Shown one piece after another: positions 1,319 through 12,700 of a stretch of 12,700 nt of DNA. The stretch spans positions 1 to 12,700 of the forward strand of contig SYGW01000052.1 of NCBI GenBank assembly GCA_005800255.1. Direction: 5' to 3'. The position numbers and the translations under genes are program-made. Each line of letters starts with the position of its first letter. Position 1 is the stretch's first letter. Source of the stretch: Nitrospiraceae bacterium. GTDB lineage: Bacteria > Nitrospirota > Nitrospiria > Nitrospirales > Nitrospiraceae. Below the pieces are notes generated by a model. The model was not told the DNA's origin and did not search any database. It saw nothing but the letters and a program-made list of their open reading frames with translations.

Positions 1319-2425
1319 ATGGGTGCACGTGAGTTTCGTGATGGGGCGCAAGATGGACTTGAAGCGCTCGAGCCGCTCGACCCGGACCAGATCGCATCGT
1401 TCGATGGCCTGCTGACCGCCATGCGCAAGACGGCCTTCGGAGGCCGGCGATTGGGCGAGGCTTACGAAGTGCTCTGGGCGATGATCGAGGATCCCGATTG
1501 TTTCGTTGTGCTGACTTTGTCCGGGGCGATGACCATTGCCAAGATGGGCAAGATCATTAGCTCAATGATCGATCACGGGATGGTGCAAGCGGTCGTCTCG
1601 ACCGGCGCCTTGATCGCGCATGGGCTGAGCGAGTCGGTCGGCAAGACCCATTACCGGCACCATCCGTCCATGTCCGATGAAGAGTTGTTCCAAAAGGGTT
1701 ATAACCGGGTGTACGACACCTTGGAAATGGAATCCAACCTGAACTACGTGGAGCAGGTGGTTTCCCAGACGATGAAGCGGGTCAAGCCTGACCGGACGCT
1801 GTCTTCCGAGATCCTGACCCGCGAACTGGGTCAGACGCTTGCGGAAGAATATGACGGGGCCGGTATCCTCAAAAGCGCTTATCTAAAAAAAGTCCCGGTC
1901 TTCATTCCGGCTTTTACCGATTCCGAGATGGGGCTGGATGTCGGGACCTGGGCGATGGGGCGGGAGCTGGATCGAGCGAGCGCGCAGCTTCAAGGGGGCA
2001 GCGACCTCGATGTGCTGCGGGCGATCCATGGCGCCTATCCCCAGTTCAATCCCTATCTCGATCTCAATAGTTATGCGAGCCATGTCGTGTCGGCCAAGAA
2101 GCTGGGGATCTTTACGATCGGCGGAGGCGTGCCACGCAATTGGGCGCAACAGGTCGGTCCCTATATCGAGATCAGCAATTCGCGGCTCGGTCTCAATGTG
2201 CAGCCGCCTCGGTTCCAGTACGGTGTGCGCATCTGTCCGGAGCCGGATTATTGGGGCGGATTGAGCGGCTGTACCTACCAGGAAGGCATTTCTTGGGGAA
2301 AGTTTGTGCCGCCTGAAGAAGGCGGGCGCTTCGCGGAAGTCTTGAGCGATGCCACGGTCGTCTGGCCTCTTCTCATGGTCGGATTGCTGGAGCGCGCCAA
2401 AACGAAGCGCGCGGCCCGCTCATGA
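1319..2425 (+). CDS. Deoxyhypusine synthase-like aminobutyltransferase (probable polyamine synthase)
   Basis: The 368-residue length matches eukaryotic deoxyhypusine synthase. Family blocks in order are TLSGAM (66-71), VSTGA (93-97), IPAFTDSEMG (196-205), IGGGVPRNW (267-275) and EGISWGK (322-328). K328 aligns with the human lysine that carries the aminobutyl imine, and both proteins have 40 residues after it. DHS enzymes use NAD to move the aminobutyl group of spermidine to a lysine of eIF5A. Bacteria have no eIF5A, so the acceptor here is probably a free amine. Homospermidine synthesis from putrescine, as in plant DHS-derived enzymes, is the leading inference, supported by arginine decarboxylase and agmatinase genes about 2.6 kb downstream. 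By eye, human H288 corresponds to N274 and human D316 to L315, which fits altered specificity. ATG 1319 follows TAGGTAG with about 8 nt spacing. The stop overlaps the next start (ATGA). Confidence 0.85.
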   Translation: MGAREFRDGAQDGLEALEPLDPDQIASFDGLLTAMRKTAFGGRRLGEAYEVLWAMIEDPDCFVVLTLSGAMTIAKMGKIISSMIDHGMVQAVVSTGALIAHGLSESVGKTHYRHHPSMSDEELFQKGYNRVYDTLEMESNLNYVEQVVSQTMKRVKPDRTLSSEILTRELGQTLAEEYDGAGILKSAYLKKVPVFIPAFTDSEMGLDVGTWAMGRELDRASAQLQGGSDLDVLRAIHGAYPQFNPYLDLNSYASHVVSAKKLGIFTIGGGVPRNWAQQVGPYIEISNSRLGLNVQPPRFQYGVRICPEPDYWGGLSGCTYQEGISWGKFVPPEEGGRFAEVLSDATVVWPLLMVGLLERAKTKRAARS

Positions 2426-7304: not shown

Positions 7305-8096
7305 TTAGTCCTGGCGTAGCGCCGGCTGCGGGCTGTCATCGGACTGTGGATGCGCCTGGTTGTGGAGGGAGTTGATCTCAGGTTCAGCTGGGCTGCCGGC
7401 CTGAGGGGAGTCTCCCCTGCGCTGCCTGGTGAAAAAGAGATTTAAAAAGGCGACAAAGAAACTCCCCCCTACGATCAGCAAGCCCGTGCGCTGGATCGCT
7501 CTCGTCCCTTCATCTCGCATATCCTTGGCCACGTCCGCCACAGTGTCCAGCAGTCGATCCAGCGCCAGACTCACCTGAATCATTTTGGGACCGGCGTTGT
7601 CGGAGGCATGCTCTTCTGCTTTCCGCCTGAGGGTTTCCCGCTCTGCTGGAGAGACGGCCAGCCATTCCTGCGTCAAGAGTTGGACGGTCGTGCTGGCCAC
7701 AGAGAAGTACTGATCCAGACTCTGCCGGACCGCTTCGATATCTTCCGGTTCACTGCGGCCGCTTCGGGAGACGCGGAGCCCGGCGGCCGCATAGCGATCG
7801 ACGGCATGTTGAATTTTCGCGCGCTGGACTGGCAAAGACTCCGTGATCCGTTCGAACTCTTTCTGGCTGTCTGCTGCGAGGGCGCGGATGATGGTGTTTC
7901 GGTAGCGCATGGCGTCTGCGGAAATGTGGGCGAGATCGGCGGCGCCGAGCGTGTACTCGGTGTACATGATTCGTAGGTCCTGGTCGACGCTGCGCAAGGC
8001 TTGTCCGCTCATCCAGCCCAGTCCTGCAATGAGTAGGCTGATGAGCAGTTGCGAGGCGCTTGGGTGAAACGATCGAAGAAAGGCTATGAGTCCCAC
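7305..8096 (-). CDS. Two-helix membrane protein with chemoreceptor-like four-helix-bundle region, no output domain
   Basis: The 263-residue product has a membrane helix at about 12-32, a long charged helical segment at about 41-197, a second helix at about 204-222 (GLLIVGGSFFVAFLNLFF), and a Pro/Ser/Gln-rich tail. The first part of the middle segment (MYTEYTLGAADLAHISADAMRYRNTIIRAL style) resembles the 4HB sensor domain of methyl-accepting chemotaxis proteins. No HAMP, methylation helix or kinase follows, so it is a sensor-like scaffold with no visible output. GTG 8096 is chosen because GGAGGAG stands at 8101-8107, just upstream; a TTG at 8135 would overlap the ABC gene and has no such site. 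It begins 13 bp after the ABC stop and is the last gene of the export-like operon. An accessory role for that complex is inference. Confidence 0.7.
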   Translation of the reverse strand: MGLIAFLRSFHPSASQLLISLLIAGLGWMSGQALRSVDQDLRIMYTEYTLGAADLAHISADAMRYRNTIIRALAADSQKEFERITESLPVQRAKIQHAVDRYAAAGLRVSRSGRSEPEDIEAVRQSLDQYFSVASTTVQLLTQEWLAVSPAERETLRRKAEEHASDNAGPKMIQVSLALDRLLDTVADVAKDMRDEGTRAIQRTGLLIVGGSFFVAFLNLFFTRQRRGDSPQAGSPAEPEINSLHNQAHPQSDDSPQPALRQD

Positions 8097-8109
8097 TGTG
8101 CTCCTCCGC

Positions 8110-9774
8110 TCAATCGAGAATGATTCGCCGGTCAACGTGCGGCGTGAGGTTGGGATCGTTCGACACGAAGATCACCGACCAGGGCTCGTCTTTTGAGCAG
8201 AGACGTCGCAAGATGGTCTCCCGCATGGCTGGCTGCATGGCATGGAGGATGCCGTCGAAGATCAGAATTTTGGGACGGGCCAGGATCGTCCGCGCGAGCA
8301 AGATCTGCATGATTTGCATCGGGGTTAGCGCCTTCCCGAGAACTCTGATGTGGGTTTTGAGTCCCTGCGGGAGCGCATCGACTTCTTCTTCCAGTTCAGT
8401 GAATTGCAGAGCCCAGCGCACGTCGCTGTAGGGAACATGGGATCTTCCCAGTACGATATTATCCTCGATCGTGCCCTCGAACAGGGTGAGTTGAGAGTCG
8501 ATCATGAATCCCCGACAACGATTGATCGTGTGGACATCGAGGTGGCGAAGGTCTACGCCATTGTATCGGAGGACGCCGTCGGTCGGCGATTCCATGCCAG
8601 CCAGGATGCGCGCGAGTGCTGTTTTAGCCTCCGTTGTGCGGGCGTAGAGGCCGATCTTTTCTCCGCAGGTGGCTTCAAGATTGAATTGTTTGAACGCTGG
8701 CGGCATGCCTGGATCGGTGAACGCCAAGTTCGTACAGGTCACGCGAATGCCGTGAACGGTTGGGTCTGGCAGCGGGATAGATAGGGCGGTGATGGCTTGG
8801 TCCTTCGGAAGTGAGAAAAGGAAGTTGAGCTCGGACAAGCCGGTTAAGAAATAATAAATATGCCCCATGCGCTTGACGACGGCATCGAGATTCGAGAGGA
8901 GTCCACTGACAACAACTTCGGCGGCCACCAGTTGTCCGAGTGTCAATTGGCCTATGGACAAGAGCCAGCCGGCGGTGGCGAGGAGTCCGCTGTGGGCGAT
9001 AGCTTGCCAGCCGACCGACCCCAGGTATTGGCGGACTAGAATGTCGAACCGGGCCTGTCTGGTCTCAACGTAGGCAAGGACCAATTCGTCGGTTCGTTTG
9101 ATCAACAGCTCTTGGCTGTCCGTGGACTTCAAGTGCAGCAGGTTGTGGGAGATCTCTTGCAGCCAGTGCAGGGTGTCATACTTGGCATGGGACATGTTGA
9201 TGGTGGCTTTGAGTCCTCCATGCGACATGAGAAAAAAGATGACGTTGAATCCTGCCAGGAGCAGGGCGTTATACAGCAAGAAGTATGGATGATAGAAGAC
9301 CAGGATGGTCATGCCAACGGCGCCGCCGACGATAACATTGATCAGGTCGACGAGGAGCACCGAGAGCGCTCGCTGCATGAAGACCGTTTCCATGAAGTAA
9401 TTGGCATAGCGTGGCTGGAATTCTGTAAGTCGCAGGTAGGGTAATTGTTGGGTCATGCCGAGAGCGATGCGAGCGAAGAGCCGGCGCTCCAGCATCTCGA
9501 CGGCGTAGAATTGCAGGGCGCGAAACGTTCCGACAAATATGAGGCCGGCCACCATGATTATCGCGAGGGTTACAATGGTGATGGGCTGAATGGCAAAGGC
9601 AAAGGTATTGACGAGTTCCTGAACGGTGAGAGGGACGATGAGCGAGAAGAGCCCGATGGCGAGGGAATAGGAAAAAATCAGAGTGAGGACTCGCCGCTCC
9701 AAGCGGAAGAGGATGCCTAGGCAGCTGAGCAGCAGCTGAAAGAAATTAAGTTGCTTGCCGACCTGATGTTGCAC
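8110..9774 (-). CDS. ABC exporter-fold protein with degenerate nucleotide-binding domain
   Basis: This 554-residue protein has the half-transporter layout of a type I exporter: a hydrophobic membrane domain (about 25-320, several helices, no N-terminal C39 peptidase) fused to a C-terminal ABC domain (about 340-554). The ABC domain has lost most catalytic motifs. The Walker A position reads ARTTEAKT (378-385), lacking all three glycines but keeping K384 and T385. The signature LSGGQ is LTPMQ (483-487). Walker B keeps D507 but the catalytic Glu is G508. The D-loop is HAMQ. The switch His is N539. The Q-loop Q428 remains. ATP hydrolysis is therefore unlikely, while weak nucleotide binding is possible. 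There is no frameshift and the reading frame is intact, so the gene appears maintained. Start is GTG 9774. TolC and HlyD genes lie upstream in the same direction, after a 138-bp gap with no convincing promoter. Confidence 0.85.
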   Translation of the reverse strand: MQHQVGKQLNFFQLLLSCLGILFRLERRVLTLIFSYSLAIGLFSLIVPLTVQELVNTFAFAIQPITIVTLAIIMVAGLIFVGTFRALQFYAVEMLERRLFARIALGMTQQLPYLRLTEFQPRYANYFMETVFMQRALSVLLVDLINVIVGGAVGMTILVFYHPYFLLYNALLLAGFNVIFFLMSHGGLKATINMSHAKYDTLHWLQEISHNLLHLKSTDSQELLIKRTDELVLAYVETRQARFDILVRQYLGSVGWQAIAHSGLLATAGWLLSIGQLTLGQLVAAEVVVSGLLSNLDAVVKRMGHIYYFLTGLSELNFLFSLPKDQAITALSIPLPDPTVHGIRVTCTNLAFTDPGMPPAFKQFNLEATCGEKIGLYARTTEAKTALARILAGMESPTDGVLRYNGVDLRHLDVHTINRCRGFMIDSQLTLFEGTIEDNIVLGRSHVPYSDVRWALQFTELEEEVDALPQGLKTHIRVLGKALTPMQIMQILLARTILARPKILIFDGILHAMQPAMRETILRRLCSKDEPWSVIFVSNDPNLTPHVDRRIILD

Positions 9775-11418: not shown

Positions 11419-12700
11419 TTACTTTGTCCCTCGTCCTGCTTTTGGCATGAGGGTGTCGAGTAGGCTCGGCGGGCGCTCTTGGTAGTCCGGCGGGAAGAGG
11501 TTGAAGCGCCGCCAGAGTTCGTACCAGAGGGGGACCCGATTCAAGATGACCCATCCCATCGCTTTCGTGCCCTGGCGGATATGTTCCTGGGGTGGCCATG
11601 GCCGATCCTCAGGATCCGGGATTACCCAGAAACGAAAGCCGCCCTTGCCGTCGTCGACTTGATCGATAACCTTGATCGAGCCGCCATAGGTGCCAGCCAT
11701 GAGTTCCGGCCAGGCTGGGAGTGGAATAGCGGGGATCCCGTAGAATAGGATGCGAACTTTGCGGCCCACGTTGAGGAGGGGCGCGTCGATTCCATCAGCC
11801 ACCATCTCAATCGCTTTGTCGGTGCTCGCCGGAGACAGTTTCACGAGCTTGTCTCCTGGACGGACGGTTTCGCCGGCCCCAGCGTGAGCCATCTTCACCA
11901 CGGTGCCATCGATCGGGGCGAGGATGCGGCTGGCGCCCCGGCGTTGTTCCGCATTGGACATCCGGAGGGAGATATCGGCCAGCTGATCGGTGGCTTTGGC
12001 TGCGTCGCCGATGGAGGCCTCACGGGCCGCTTCGGCATCGAGTAATCGTTGGAGAACGTCGGCGCTGACTTGGTCGCGGCCAAAGTTGAGGGATTTCATC
12101 GCCTGTCCTGCGCCTTTGAGGTTGGCTTGCGCCCCGGCCAGATCGGCTTTGGTGGCGATCGCCGCTTGGATGGTCAACTCGAGTTCGCGTTGCGACACGA
12201 GGCCCTGTTCTGCTAGTTGTTTGTGCCGGTTTACATTTAACTCGGCGGTTGCGACCGCGATTTTTGCCGATTCGACCTTCTGGTAGGCTTCCCGCACCTT
12301 GTTCTCCGCTTCGACCACCCGCGCTTGGGCAGAGGGGACCGCGGCCTTGACGAGGTTCTGCATCTCCACGATCCGTTTATCCAGTTGCTCGGCCCGCGCG
12401 AGCGCGGCTTTGCGAGACTGGTTCAGCGCTTTGCGTCGTTGGTCCAGAAAAGTCAGGAGGTCTGGAGACATGAAGTTGGGATCGTAGTCATCCAACTCGA
12501 GAATGAGATCGCCTTGCTTGACGCGCACCCCCTCGAAGATGTGCCATTTCTTGATTCGCCCGGTGATTTGCGCTTCGATATCCTGCGGACGCTCGTAGGG
12601 CATATAGGCGGAGAGTTGTCCTGTGACAGTAATCGTCTGGGTCCAGGGCAGGAAGGCGATGATCAGGAGGAACAGCCCCACCAGCTTAATGGCGAGGCGC
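11419..12700 (-). CDS. HlyD-family membrane-fusion (periplasmic adaptor) protein, N-terminus beyond window
   Basis: The reverse frame is open to the window edge, giving 426 visible residues. It contains a membrane anchor (IKLVGLFLLIIAFLPW) at the visible start, then a first half lipoyl/barrel-sandwich (ITGRIKKWHIFEGVRVKQGD). A long Ala/Glu/Lys-rich coiled coil follows (about 85-245). The second half lipoyl (SRILAPIDGTVVKMAHAGAGE) and a beta-barrel domain come next, with an aromatic C-terminal region (PLWYELWRRFNLFPP). An in-frame GTG at 12681 sits inside the membrane anchor; because the frame continues upstream, it is probably not the start. The adaptor would bridge an inner-membrane transporter and the TolC-like channel encoded immediately downstream. 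The usual energising partner would be an ABC or MFS protein; the ABC-fold protein of this operon looks inactive. Confidence 0.88.
   Translation of the reverse strand, partial: RLAIKLVGLFLLIIAFLPWTQTITVTGQLSAYMPYERPQDIEAQITGRIKKWHIFEGVRVKQGDLILELDDYDPNFMSPDLLTFLDQRRKALNQSRKAALARAEQLDKRIVEMQNLVKAAVPSAQARVVEAENKVREAYQKVESAKIAVATAELNVNRHKQLAEQGLVSQRELELTIQAAIATKADLAGAQANLKGAGQAMKSLNFGRDQVSADVLQRLLDAEAAREASIGDAAKATDQLADISLRMSNAEQRRGASRILAPIDGTVVKMAHAGAGETVRPGDKLVKLSPASTDKAIEMVADGIDAPLLNVGRKVRILFYGIPAIPLPAWPELMAGTYGGSIKVIDQVDDGKGGFRFWVIPDPEDRPWPPQEHIRQGTKAMGWVILNRVPLWYELWRRFNLFPPDYQERPPSLLDTLMPKAGRGTK

Follow-up and report, generated by a model that had tools for sequence, protein, structure and literature searches.

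What can a protein with the fold of an ABC exporter do beside a HlyD-family adaptor and a TolC-family channel, when its ATPase site has been dismantled at nearly every catalytic motif? The question is raised by a gene in the stretch of 12,700 nucleotides analysed here (the window), which is the third in a run of four encoding an HlyD protein, a TolC/OEP protein, the ABC protein and a 4HB_MCP membrane protein (Table 1). Its frame (9774-8110 on the minus strand) starts with GTG and contains no internal stop over 554 aa. Both the undamaged frame and the HlyD/TolC operon setting had been pointed out in a preliminary description of this DNA and are borne out, with HlyD cut by the window edge. The adaptor, which has 478 aa in one relative (L001), also matches TIGR01843 (6.4e-20, below the cut-off of that model).

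The C-terminal part of the ABC protein is still recognised by Pfam ABC_tran (31.7 bits, cut-off 25). The best NCBIfam match is to the NHLM bacteriocin exporter model TIGR03796, at 120 of 853 bits and far under the cut-off, and none of the 25 models listed, of 83 matching the protein, reaches its own cut-off. An exporter-type membrane fold is present in the AlphaFold2 model (mean pLDDT 77.5), whose best Foldseek match is HlyB (7sgr_B, E 7e-20). Predicted promoters (2) and terminators (3) are not above chance (shuffle means 1.9, sd 1.4, and 5.6, sd 2.8, respectively). Elsewhere in the window (1319-2425, plus strand) lies a gene of the deoxyhypusine synthase family (Pfam DS, 3.5e-74), here in a bacterium, adjoining a DsbA/thioredoxin-like gene; a gene downstream of it, recognised by eye, is presumably agmatinase-like.

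Table 1. Coordinates of the operon, the domains and the motif positions in the window
Feature	Position	Strand	Evidence
Pseudo-ABC exporter half-protein, 554 aa	8110..9774	-	Intact frame; ABC_tran Pfam match; AlphaFold2 model; Foldseek HlyB
Membrane domain (TMD), residues 1-330	8785..9774	-	No Pfam ABC_membrane/SbmA match; conserved in members without ATPase domain
Pseudo-nucleotide-binding domain (pseudo-NBD), residues 340-554	8113..8757	-	Pfam, model, alignment of 283 members
TolC/OEP-family outer-membrane channel, 501 aa	9913..11418	-	Pfam OEP 5.6e-32
HlyD-family periplasmic adaptor, cut at window edge	11419..12699	-	Pfam HlyD_3 5.1e-9
4HB_MCP membrane sensor-domain protein, no recognised signalling domain; accessory	7305..8135	-	Pfam 4HB_MCP_1 1.3e-8
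Walker A remnant ARTTEAKT, residues 378-385	8620..8643	-	Sequence; alignment
Q-loop position, Ser427 instead of Gln	8494..8496	-	By eye against canonical motif; alignment
Signature remnant LTPMQ, residues 483-487	8314..8328	-	Alignment; first Gly position is 485
Walker B ILIFD (503-507), then Gly508 replacing catalytic Glu	8251..8268	-	Alignment
Switch His position, Asn539	8158..8160	-	Alignment
Glu53, TM1, candidate proton-handling residue	9616..9618	-	Glu in 315/315 TMD segments with a letter there
Glu286, TM6, candidate proton-handling residue	8917..8919	-	Glu 312, Gln 4 of 316 TMD segments
Glu129, TM3	9388..9390	-	Glu 311, Asp 5 of 316 TMD segments

Loss of the catalytic motifs

Four losses had been reported for the ATPase domain, namely a Walker A reading ARTTEAKT, a signature reading LTPMQ, Gly after Walker B and Asn at the switch His. 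All four are found in the sequence, but the extent of the loss had been understated, as the A-, Q- and D-loops are lost too. Specifically, the D-loop reads HAMQ and not SALD, the A-loop aromatic is absent, and all three Walker A glycines are gone together with the Q-loop Gln and the signature; the A-, Q- and D-loop positions were placed by eye against the canonical motifs. What survives is Lys384-Thr385 of Walker A and Asp507 of Walker B. The Walker A, LSGGQ, catalytic Glu and switch His of a competent NBD are thus lacking in the window protein.

The family was assembled from homologue listings (the best 120 of 1649 matches to the window protein and the best 120 of 1235 to a TMD-only relative) and from the ORFs of 75 loci, obtained by a scan of GTDB species genomes in which 80 of 99 were kept; pooled and made non-redundant, these sources gave 283 full-length members. 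The motif degeneracy is not chance, because not one of the 283 keeps the catalytic Glu (Gly in 281, Ser in 2), the first signature Gly, the switch His (one gap) or the first Walker A Gly. The Q-loop Gln is retained by 6 members, the Walker A Lys by 167 (with Arg in 109) and the Walker B Asp by 246. When the best 120 of the 1649 homologues were aligned (76-96% identical), Gly508 was invariant, and position 539 was Asn in 118 and Ser in 3 of the 121 rows that include the window. The preliminary description had named canonical close homologues in the same locus as evidence that would count against it; canonical motifs occur in none of the 93 ABC ORFs of at least 450 aa from the 75 loci and the window (two are cut inside the motif region), and the degenerate motifs are conserved in homologues at the locus, as shown by the loss of Glu, His and the first signature Gly in every member examined. 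Even the Walker A Lys has been replaced in twelve locus ORFs of one lineage (L038-L042, L044-L047, L049, L050 and L058), whose HlyD gene, wherever present in the sequence, has the reverse orientation; the Lys is also lost in the Nitrospirales/Nitrospinota branch.

Nucleotide might still be bound without being hydrolysed, with Lys384, Thr385 and Asp507 holding it as a gating switch. The survival of these residues in the window, and of the Lys and the Asp in many of the 283 members, would agree with such a switch, and for TmrAB the binding of nucleotide can be enough for translocation (PMC7756269, in the portion available). Nevertheless, the three glycines, the Q-loop Gln and the signature have gone from the window protein, the A-loop aromatic is absent by eye, the Lys has often become Arg, and the whole domain is missing in one clade (see below), so that we consider a binding switch unlikely.

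Selection was estimated by pairwise dN/dS (Nei-Gojobori; the pairs are not independent). Seven pairs that include the window gene gave 0.13-0.25 overall, 0.12-0.22 for the TMD and 0.11-0.27 for the pseudo-NBD, and 1000 pairs with dS of 0.2-1.3 gave medians of 0.24 for the whole gene, 0.21 for the TMD and 0.21 for the NBD, the highest NBD value being 0.55. The gene is not decaying: values well under 1 indicate that the TMD and the pseudo-ATPase domain are both under purifying selection. Since selection on the pseudo-NBD is about as strong as on the TMD, this domain does something important in most members, and the earlier suggestion of selection for a non-hydrolytic role is in keeping with the conserved losses and the low dN/dS. 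A case for a decaying pseudogene or dispensable remnant could be built on some close pairs outside the window, whose dN/dS (0.01-0.05) lies below that of the window pairs, and on two genomes in which the first tandem pseudo-ABC copy is split into two frames by a real lesion or an assembly error (L020:2464-4131 and G144:C4:249648-251265). Against it stand losses common to 283 members, and decay or frameshift was rejected for the window gene on account of its undamaged frame and its dN/dS; we give a remnant hardly any credence.

Distribution and the search for a competent partner

The pseudo-ABC locus is conserved through much of Nitrospira. A TolC homologue is present in 69 of the 75 related loci, and HlyD and TolC occur together in 65; seven of the other ten have contig ends near the gene, and the remaining three (L072, L074 and L075) represent an orphan paralogue elsewhere. 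A 4HB homologue accompanies the gene in 46 of the 75 loci, and none was seen beside L116-L118. Two full-length pseudo-ABC genes, both degenerate, stand in tandem in 19 loci. One lineage (L054, L059, L061, L064, L065 and L124) has three tandem TolC-like genes, followed by the pseudo-ABC gene and then HlyD. The 75 loci are titled mostly Nitrospira, Nitrospiraceae, Nitrospirae or Nitrospirota; those titled ‘uncultured Nitrosospira’ (L014 and L050), Armatimonadetes (L035) and Acidimicrobiia (L057) are perhaps misnamed or misbinned. The family is an isolated one among ABC-fold proteins; its members come from Nitrospira, from other Nitrospirales and from some Nitrospinota, and most of them have HlyD and TolC as neighbours. 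A literature search, conducted mostly outside subscription journals, found no paper on this pseudo-ABC family or locus.

Matches at E<=1e-20 occur in 47 of 198 Nitrospirota genomes, and 45 genomes carry family members of at least 44% identity (seven candidates scored per genome). The remaining matches, in three genomes, have 22-23% identity, and L123, the one inspected, has canonical motifs; a bridging relative with canonical motifs was rejected, as identity drops straight from the former level to the latter. With the TMD-only query, 45 of 196 Nitrospirota genomes match. A query that we take to be NxrA-type, judging by its length, copy number and sequence, matches 47 of the 196 at a minimum of 77% identity, 37 of them with the pseudo-ABC family and 10 without, and eight genomes with the family lack such a match. 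Not all nitrite oxidisers appear to need the family, and its use as a strict marker of nitrite oxidation was rejected on these discordant genomes, in a comparison confounded by kinship. NxrA-like genes at 85-99% identity occur with no family match in G066, G082, G138 and G180, where assembly gaps are possible.

Some members lie outside the export setting. Two orphan paralogues (L085:8834-10513 and L125:2812-4500) have no HlyD or TolC nearby; by Pfam, the L085 gene is flanked by an NtrC-type two-component system, consisting of a histidine kinase and a receiver-domain sigma-54 activator, and the neighbours in L125 are of similar size and match the same clusters. A sensory role would fit these two. 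Another orphan paralogue occurs in L072, L074, L075, L084, L120 and L122. In L084 its neighbours, by Pfam, include a PMT-like gene and one for a GT2 glycosyltransferase, and in the other five it is surrounded by related gene clusters. Three proteins named from Nitrospinota/Nitrospinae (P0189, P0202 and P0235; P0189 is from Candidatus Nitronauta litoralis, phylum Nitrospinota) fall among Nitrospirales sequences in the TMD tree described below, a placement that suggests gene transfer between Nitrospinota and Nitrospirota.

The preliminary description had noted that no competent partner is encoded in the operon. Indeed, no ORF of at least 90 aa in the window or the 75 loci fits a strict pattern of Walker A plus an LSGGQ-type signature. 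A competent ABC gene just past the window edge was considered and rejected: none is found there in relatives, and in window-like operons HlyD is preceded by genes of the opposite strand that resemble, by eye, purE/purK. At the level of the genome, ABC_tran matches number 42 in N. moscoviensis and 51 in N. defluvii, many in frames long enough for a membrane domain. The degenerate genes, two in the former and four in the latter, score 35-51 bits against ABC_tran, other near-full-length matches score 67 bits or more, and weaker partial matches fall below the degenerate genes. A competent half elsewhere in the genome, which the preliminary description had envisaged, did not appear in these two complete genomes, as the matches at E<=1e-20 are degenerate paralogues alone (7 of 31 and 7 of 33 candidates scored).

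These results bear on the proposal that the protein is the degenerate half of an asymmetric heterodimer, with a competent ABC partner encoded elsewhere. Exporters with one degenerate and one competent site are indeed known, Pdr5 being a case in which every motif of one site is changed (PMC7756269, in the passages available); moreover, the numerous ABC_tran matches in the two genomes would make an unrelated partner in trans available. However, an ABC composite site combines the Walker A and B motifs and the A-, Q- and H-loops of one chain with the signature of its partner (same source). The chain studied here has lost the Walker/Glu/His set as well as the signature, and therefore could not complete a partner's catalytic site: judged from the sequence, it could contribute to a canonical site neither in a homodimer nor in a heterodimer with a normal partner. 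With tandem partners also degenerate and members without any NBD in existence, the half-of-a-heterodimer proposal is not supported, and we regard it as very improbable.

The membrane domain and a clade without the ATPase domain

At locus L116 (genome G188), HlyD and TolC are accompanied by a membrane domain of 346 aa that ends where the NBD would start. Thirteen such TMD-only proteins (329-346 aa) are among the best 120 of 1235 matches to the L116 protein. A tree of TMDs (98 rows) unites them in a single group (SH-aLRT 99) nested among full-length pseudo-ABCs; the tree is a quick LG+G4 estimate with one very long-branched outgroup and an unsure root, and only a root placed within the group of 13 would undo the nesting. 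Three other short rows (P0139, P0145 and P0201) are each placed alone next to full-length relatives; they may reflect further losses, frameshifts or truncated records. Of the 14 genomes in the genus of G188, five match, with TMD-only proteins in G188, G207 and G202 and full-length ones in G174 and G201. Searches by tblastn with three NBD queries gave short or chance-level matches in G188 (best E 0.03, inside HlyD) and chance-level matches in G207 (best E 0.05) and G202 (best E 0.73). Three TMD-only loci (L116, L153 and L154) share the order divergent LysR-type gene, HlyD, TolC, TMD and then a DabA-linked operon; this operon, on the same strand and with Proton_antipo_M and DabA genes (Pfam, in L116), follows directly. 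TMD-only genes have an omega of 0.24-0.30, which is purifying, against 0.10-0.17 for their TolC and HlyD mates, and this relative relaxation counts somewhat against a fully constrained transporter.

Because the chain has lost both motif sets and an NBD-free clade exists, ATP hydrolysis is very unlikely, and we are highly confident that the pseudo-ABC protein carries out none. Of the non-hydrolytic options offered in the preliminary description, a non-hydrolytic role as such stands, and a transporter working without ATP is favoured over an ATP-gated one because relatives lack the domain altogether.

Pfam searches of 25 family TMDs at E<=1 gave no ABC_membrane or SbmA match, remote homology being possible; of the weak matches obtained, the commonest was TraQ (12 members, best E 0.0064). 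Confidence in the TMD-only model is intermediate (mean pLDDT 73.5), and the Foldseek matches of this model, none of which reaches E 0.001, are led by HlyB (7sgr, 8dck), BmrCD and other ABC exporters, with SbmA in 44th place. In the same model a single short helix precedes the core at the N-terminus, and another short one, at 207-213, may be a coupling helix. Three membrane glutamates are conserved in the family (Table 1). At the E53 position BmrA has Gln and one canonical exporter aligned has Val; at E286 the corresponding entries are Ile and a gap. At E129, by contrast, the one canonical exporter has Glu too, as aligned, and family-specificity is thus unsupported. D143 is kept in 315 of 316 TMD segments, and R135 and H162 are also near-invariant.

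The reading that we prefer, and to which we give about an even chance, is of a HlyD-TolC-type tripartite exporter to which the protein contributes the inner-membrane component, one that has abandoned ATP hydrolysis and is likely driven by an ion gradient, probably of protons. The catalytic machinery would have been lost in an ancestral exporter before the members examined diverged; the pseudo-NBD would then have been retained in most lineages, perhaps for dimerisation or conformational control as a clamp on the dimer, and discarded entirely in one. Assembled with HlyD and TolC, the protein would most likely use the gradient for transport via its membrane glutamates, with E53 and E286 as the first candidate proton carriers, and with alternating access by analogy with SbmA/BacA. 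SbmA is the precedent for a fold of this kind running on protons after NBD loss (PMC13316013, in the part available). Weighing against this reading are the somewhat relaxed omega of the TMD-only genes, the low Foldseek rank of SbmA, the Glu of the canonical exporter at the E129 position, the strength of selection on the pseudo-NBD in most members, and the orphan paralogues outside the export setting.

Alternatively, the protein may be a pseudo-ATPase scaffold or gate, that is, an anchor or passive conduit for HlyD-TolC at the inner membrane, or a regulator of the SUR type; any movement would then be powered by the gradient of the substrate itself or by some other machine. The loss of catalysis in all members examined is compatible with this, as is the frequent 4HB sensor-domain homologue; the orphan paralogues beside a two-component system or glycosyltransferases would fit regulators, and the TMD-only members, with their slightly relaxed omega, could be simple anchors. 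Still, the near-invariant charged residues (E53, D143, E286, R135 and H162) seem more than an anchor needs, and we treat the scaffold or gate as a serious but distinctly lesser possibility.

If ion-gradient drive is correct, the family could preserve the path along which a tripartite exporter resembling those of type I secretion exchanged ATP for ion-gradient power, from a pseudo-ATPase with the Walker Lys, through loss of the Lys, to loss of the whole domain. This broader reading is put forward tentatively, as one about which we are slightly more doubtful than confident. Such living intermediate stages would make the order of ATP-coupling loss, and any residual role of the pseudo-NBD, directly testable.

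Comparison with known systems

The closest system by gene content is HlyB/HlyD/TolC type I secretion: the gene set is the same, the linked HlyD and TolC of that class are found in the window and in most related loci, and Foldseek ranks HlyB (7sgr, 8dck) first for both models. HlyB, however, is a competent ATPase, whereas the family described here has lost its catalytic motifs. The heterodimers TM287/288, TmrAB, TAP and Pdr5 share conserved degenerate catalytic motifs with it, yet they keep one competent composite site (PMC7756269, in the portion available), while the family copies examined, tandem partners included, are degenerate on both faces. In a heterodimer of that type the half with the degenerate Walker/Glu site has an intact signature; here the signature and the Glu/His are lost in the same chain. 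Type I secretion-like loci without a competent ABC transporter have also been described in Planctomycetes and others, where HlyD is linked to SecA_DEAD; by their description, in the sections available, these carry a SecA_DEAD ATPase and an M50 peptidase with no ABC homologue (PMC4452313). On the model of those loci, an energiser of the SecA_DEAD type was considered for the present family.

The transporters described as powering tripartite exporters are of the ABC, RND or MFS type (PMC8277102, in excerpt), and an ABC-fold pump working without ATP would, if the preferred reading is true, be a further arrangement. The nearest parallel in mechanism would be SbmA/BacA (SLiPT), for which descent from an ABC transporter with NBD loss has been proposed, and which has a glutamate ladder and is proton-driven. 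It shares the ABC-exporter membrane fold without ATP use, and the TMD-only clade repeats its loss of the NBD. There are clear differences: SbmA/BacA imports, has an added TM0 domain and is described as without coupling helices (PMC13316013, in the part available), whereas in the present family linkage to HlyD and TolC is the rule for most members, and the 25 TMDs scanned do not match the SbmA model of Pfam. Absence of the NBD characterises the 13-member clade alone, since the window protein, like most members, retains a pseudo-NBD. As possible counterparts of the glutamate ladder the family offers the near-invariant E53 and E286, which may or may not line a cavity. If the preferred reading is true, this would be a second loss of the NBD besides that of SbmA/BacA, in a HlyD/TolC-linked export machine of mainly nitrite-oxidising lineages; SbmA is, in the literature consulted, the one worked-out case of an ABC membrane domain turned secondary transporter (PMC13316013), and the pseudo-ABC family is a candidate for the second.
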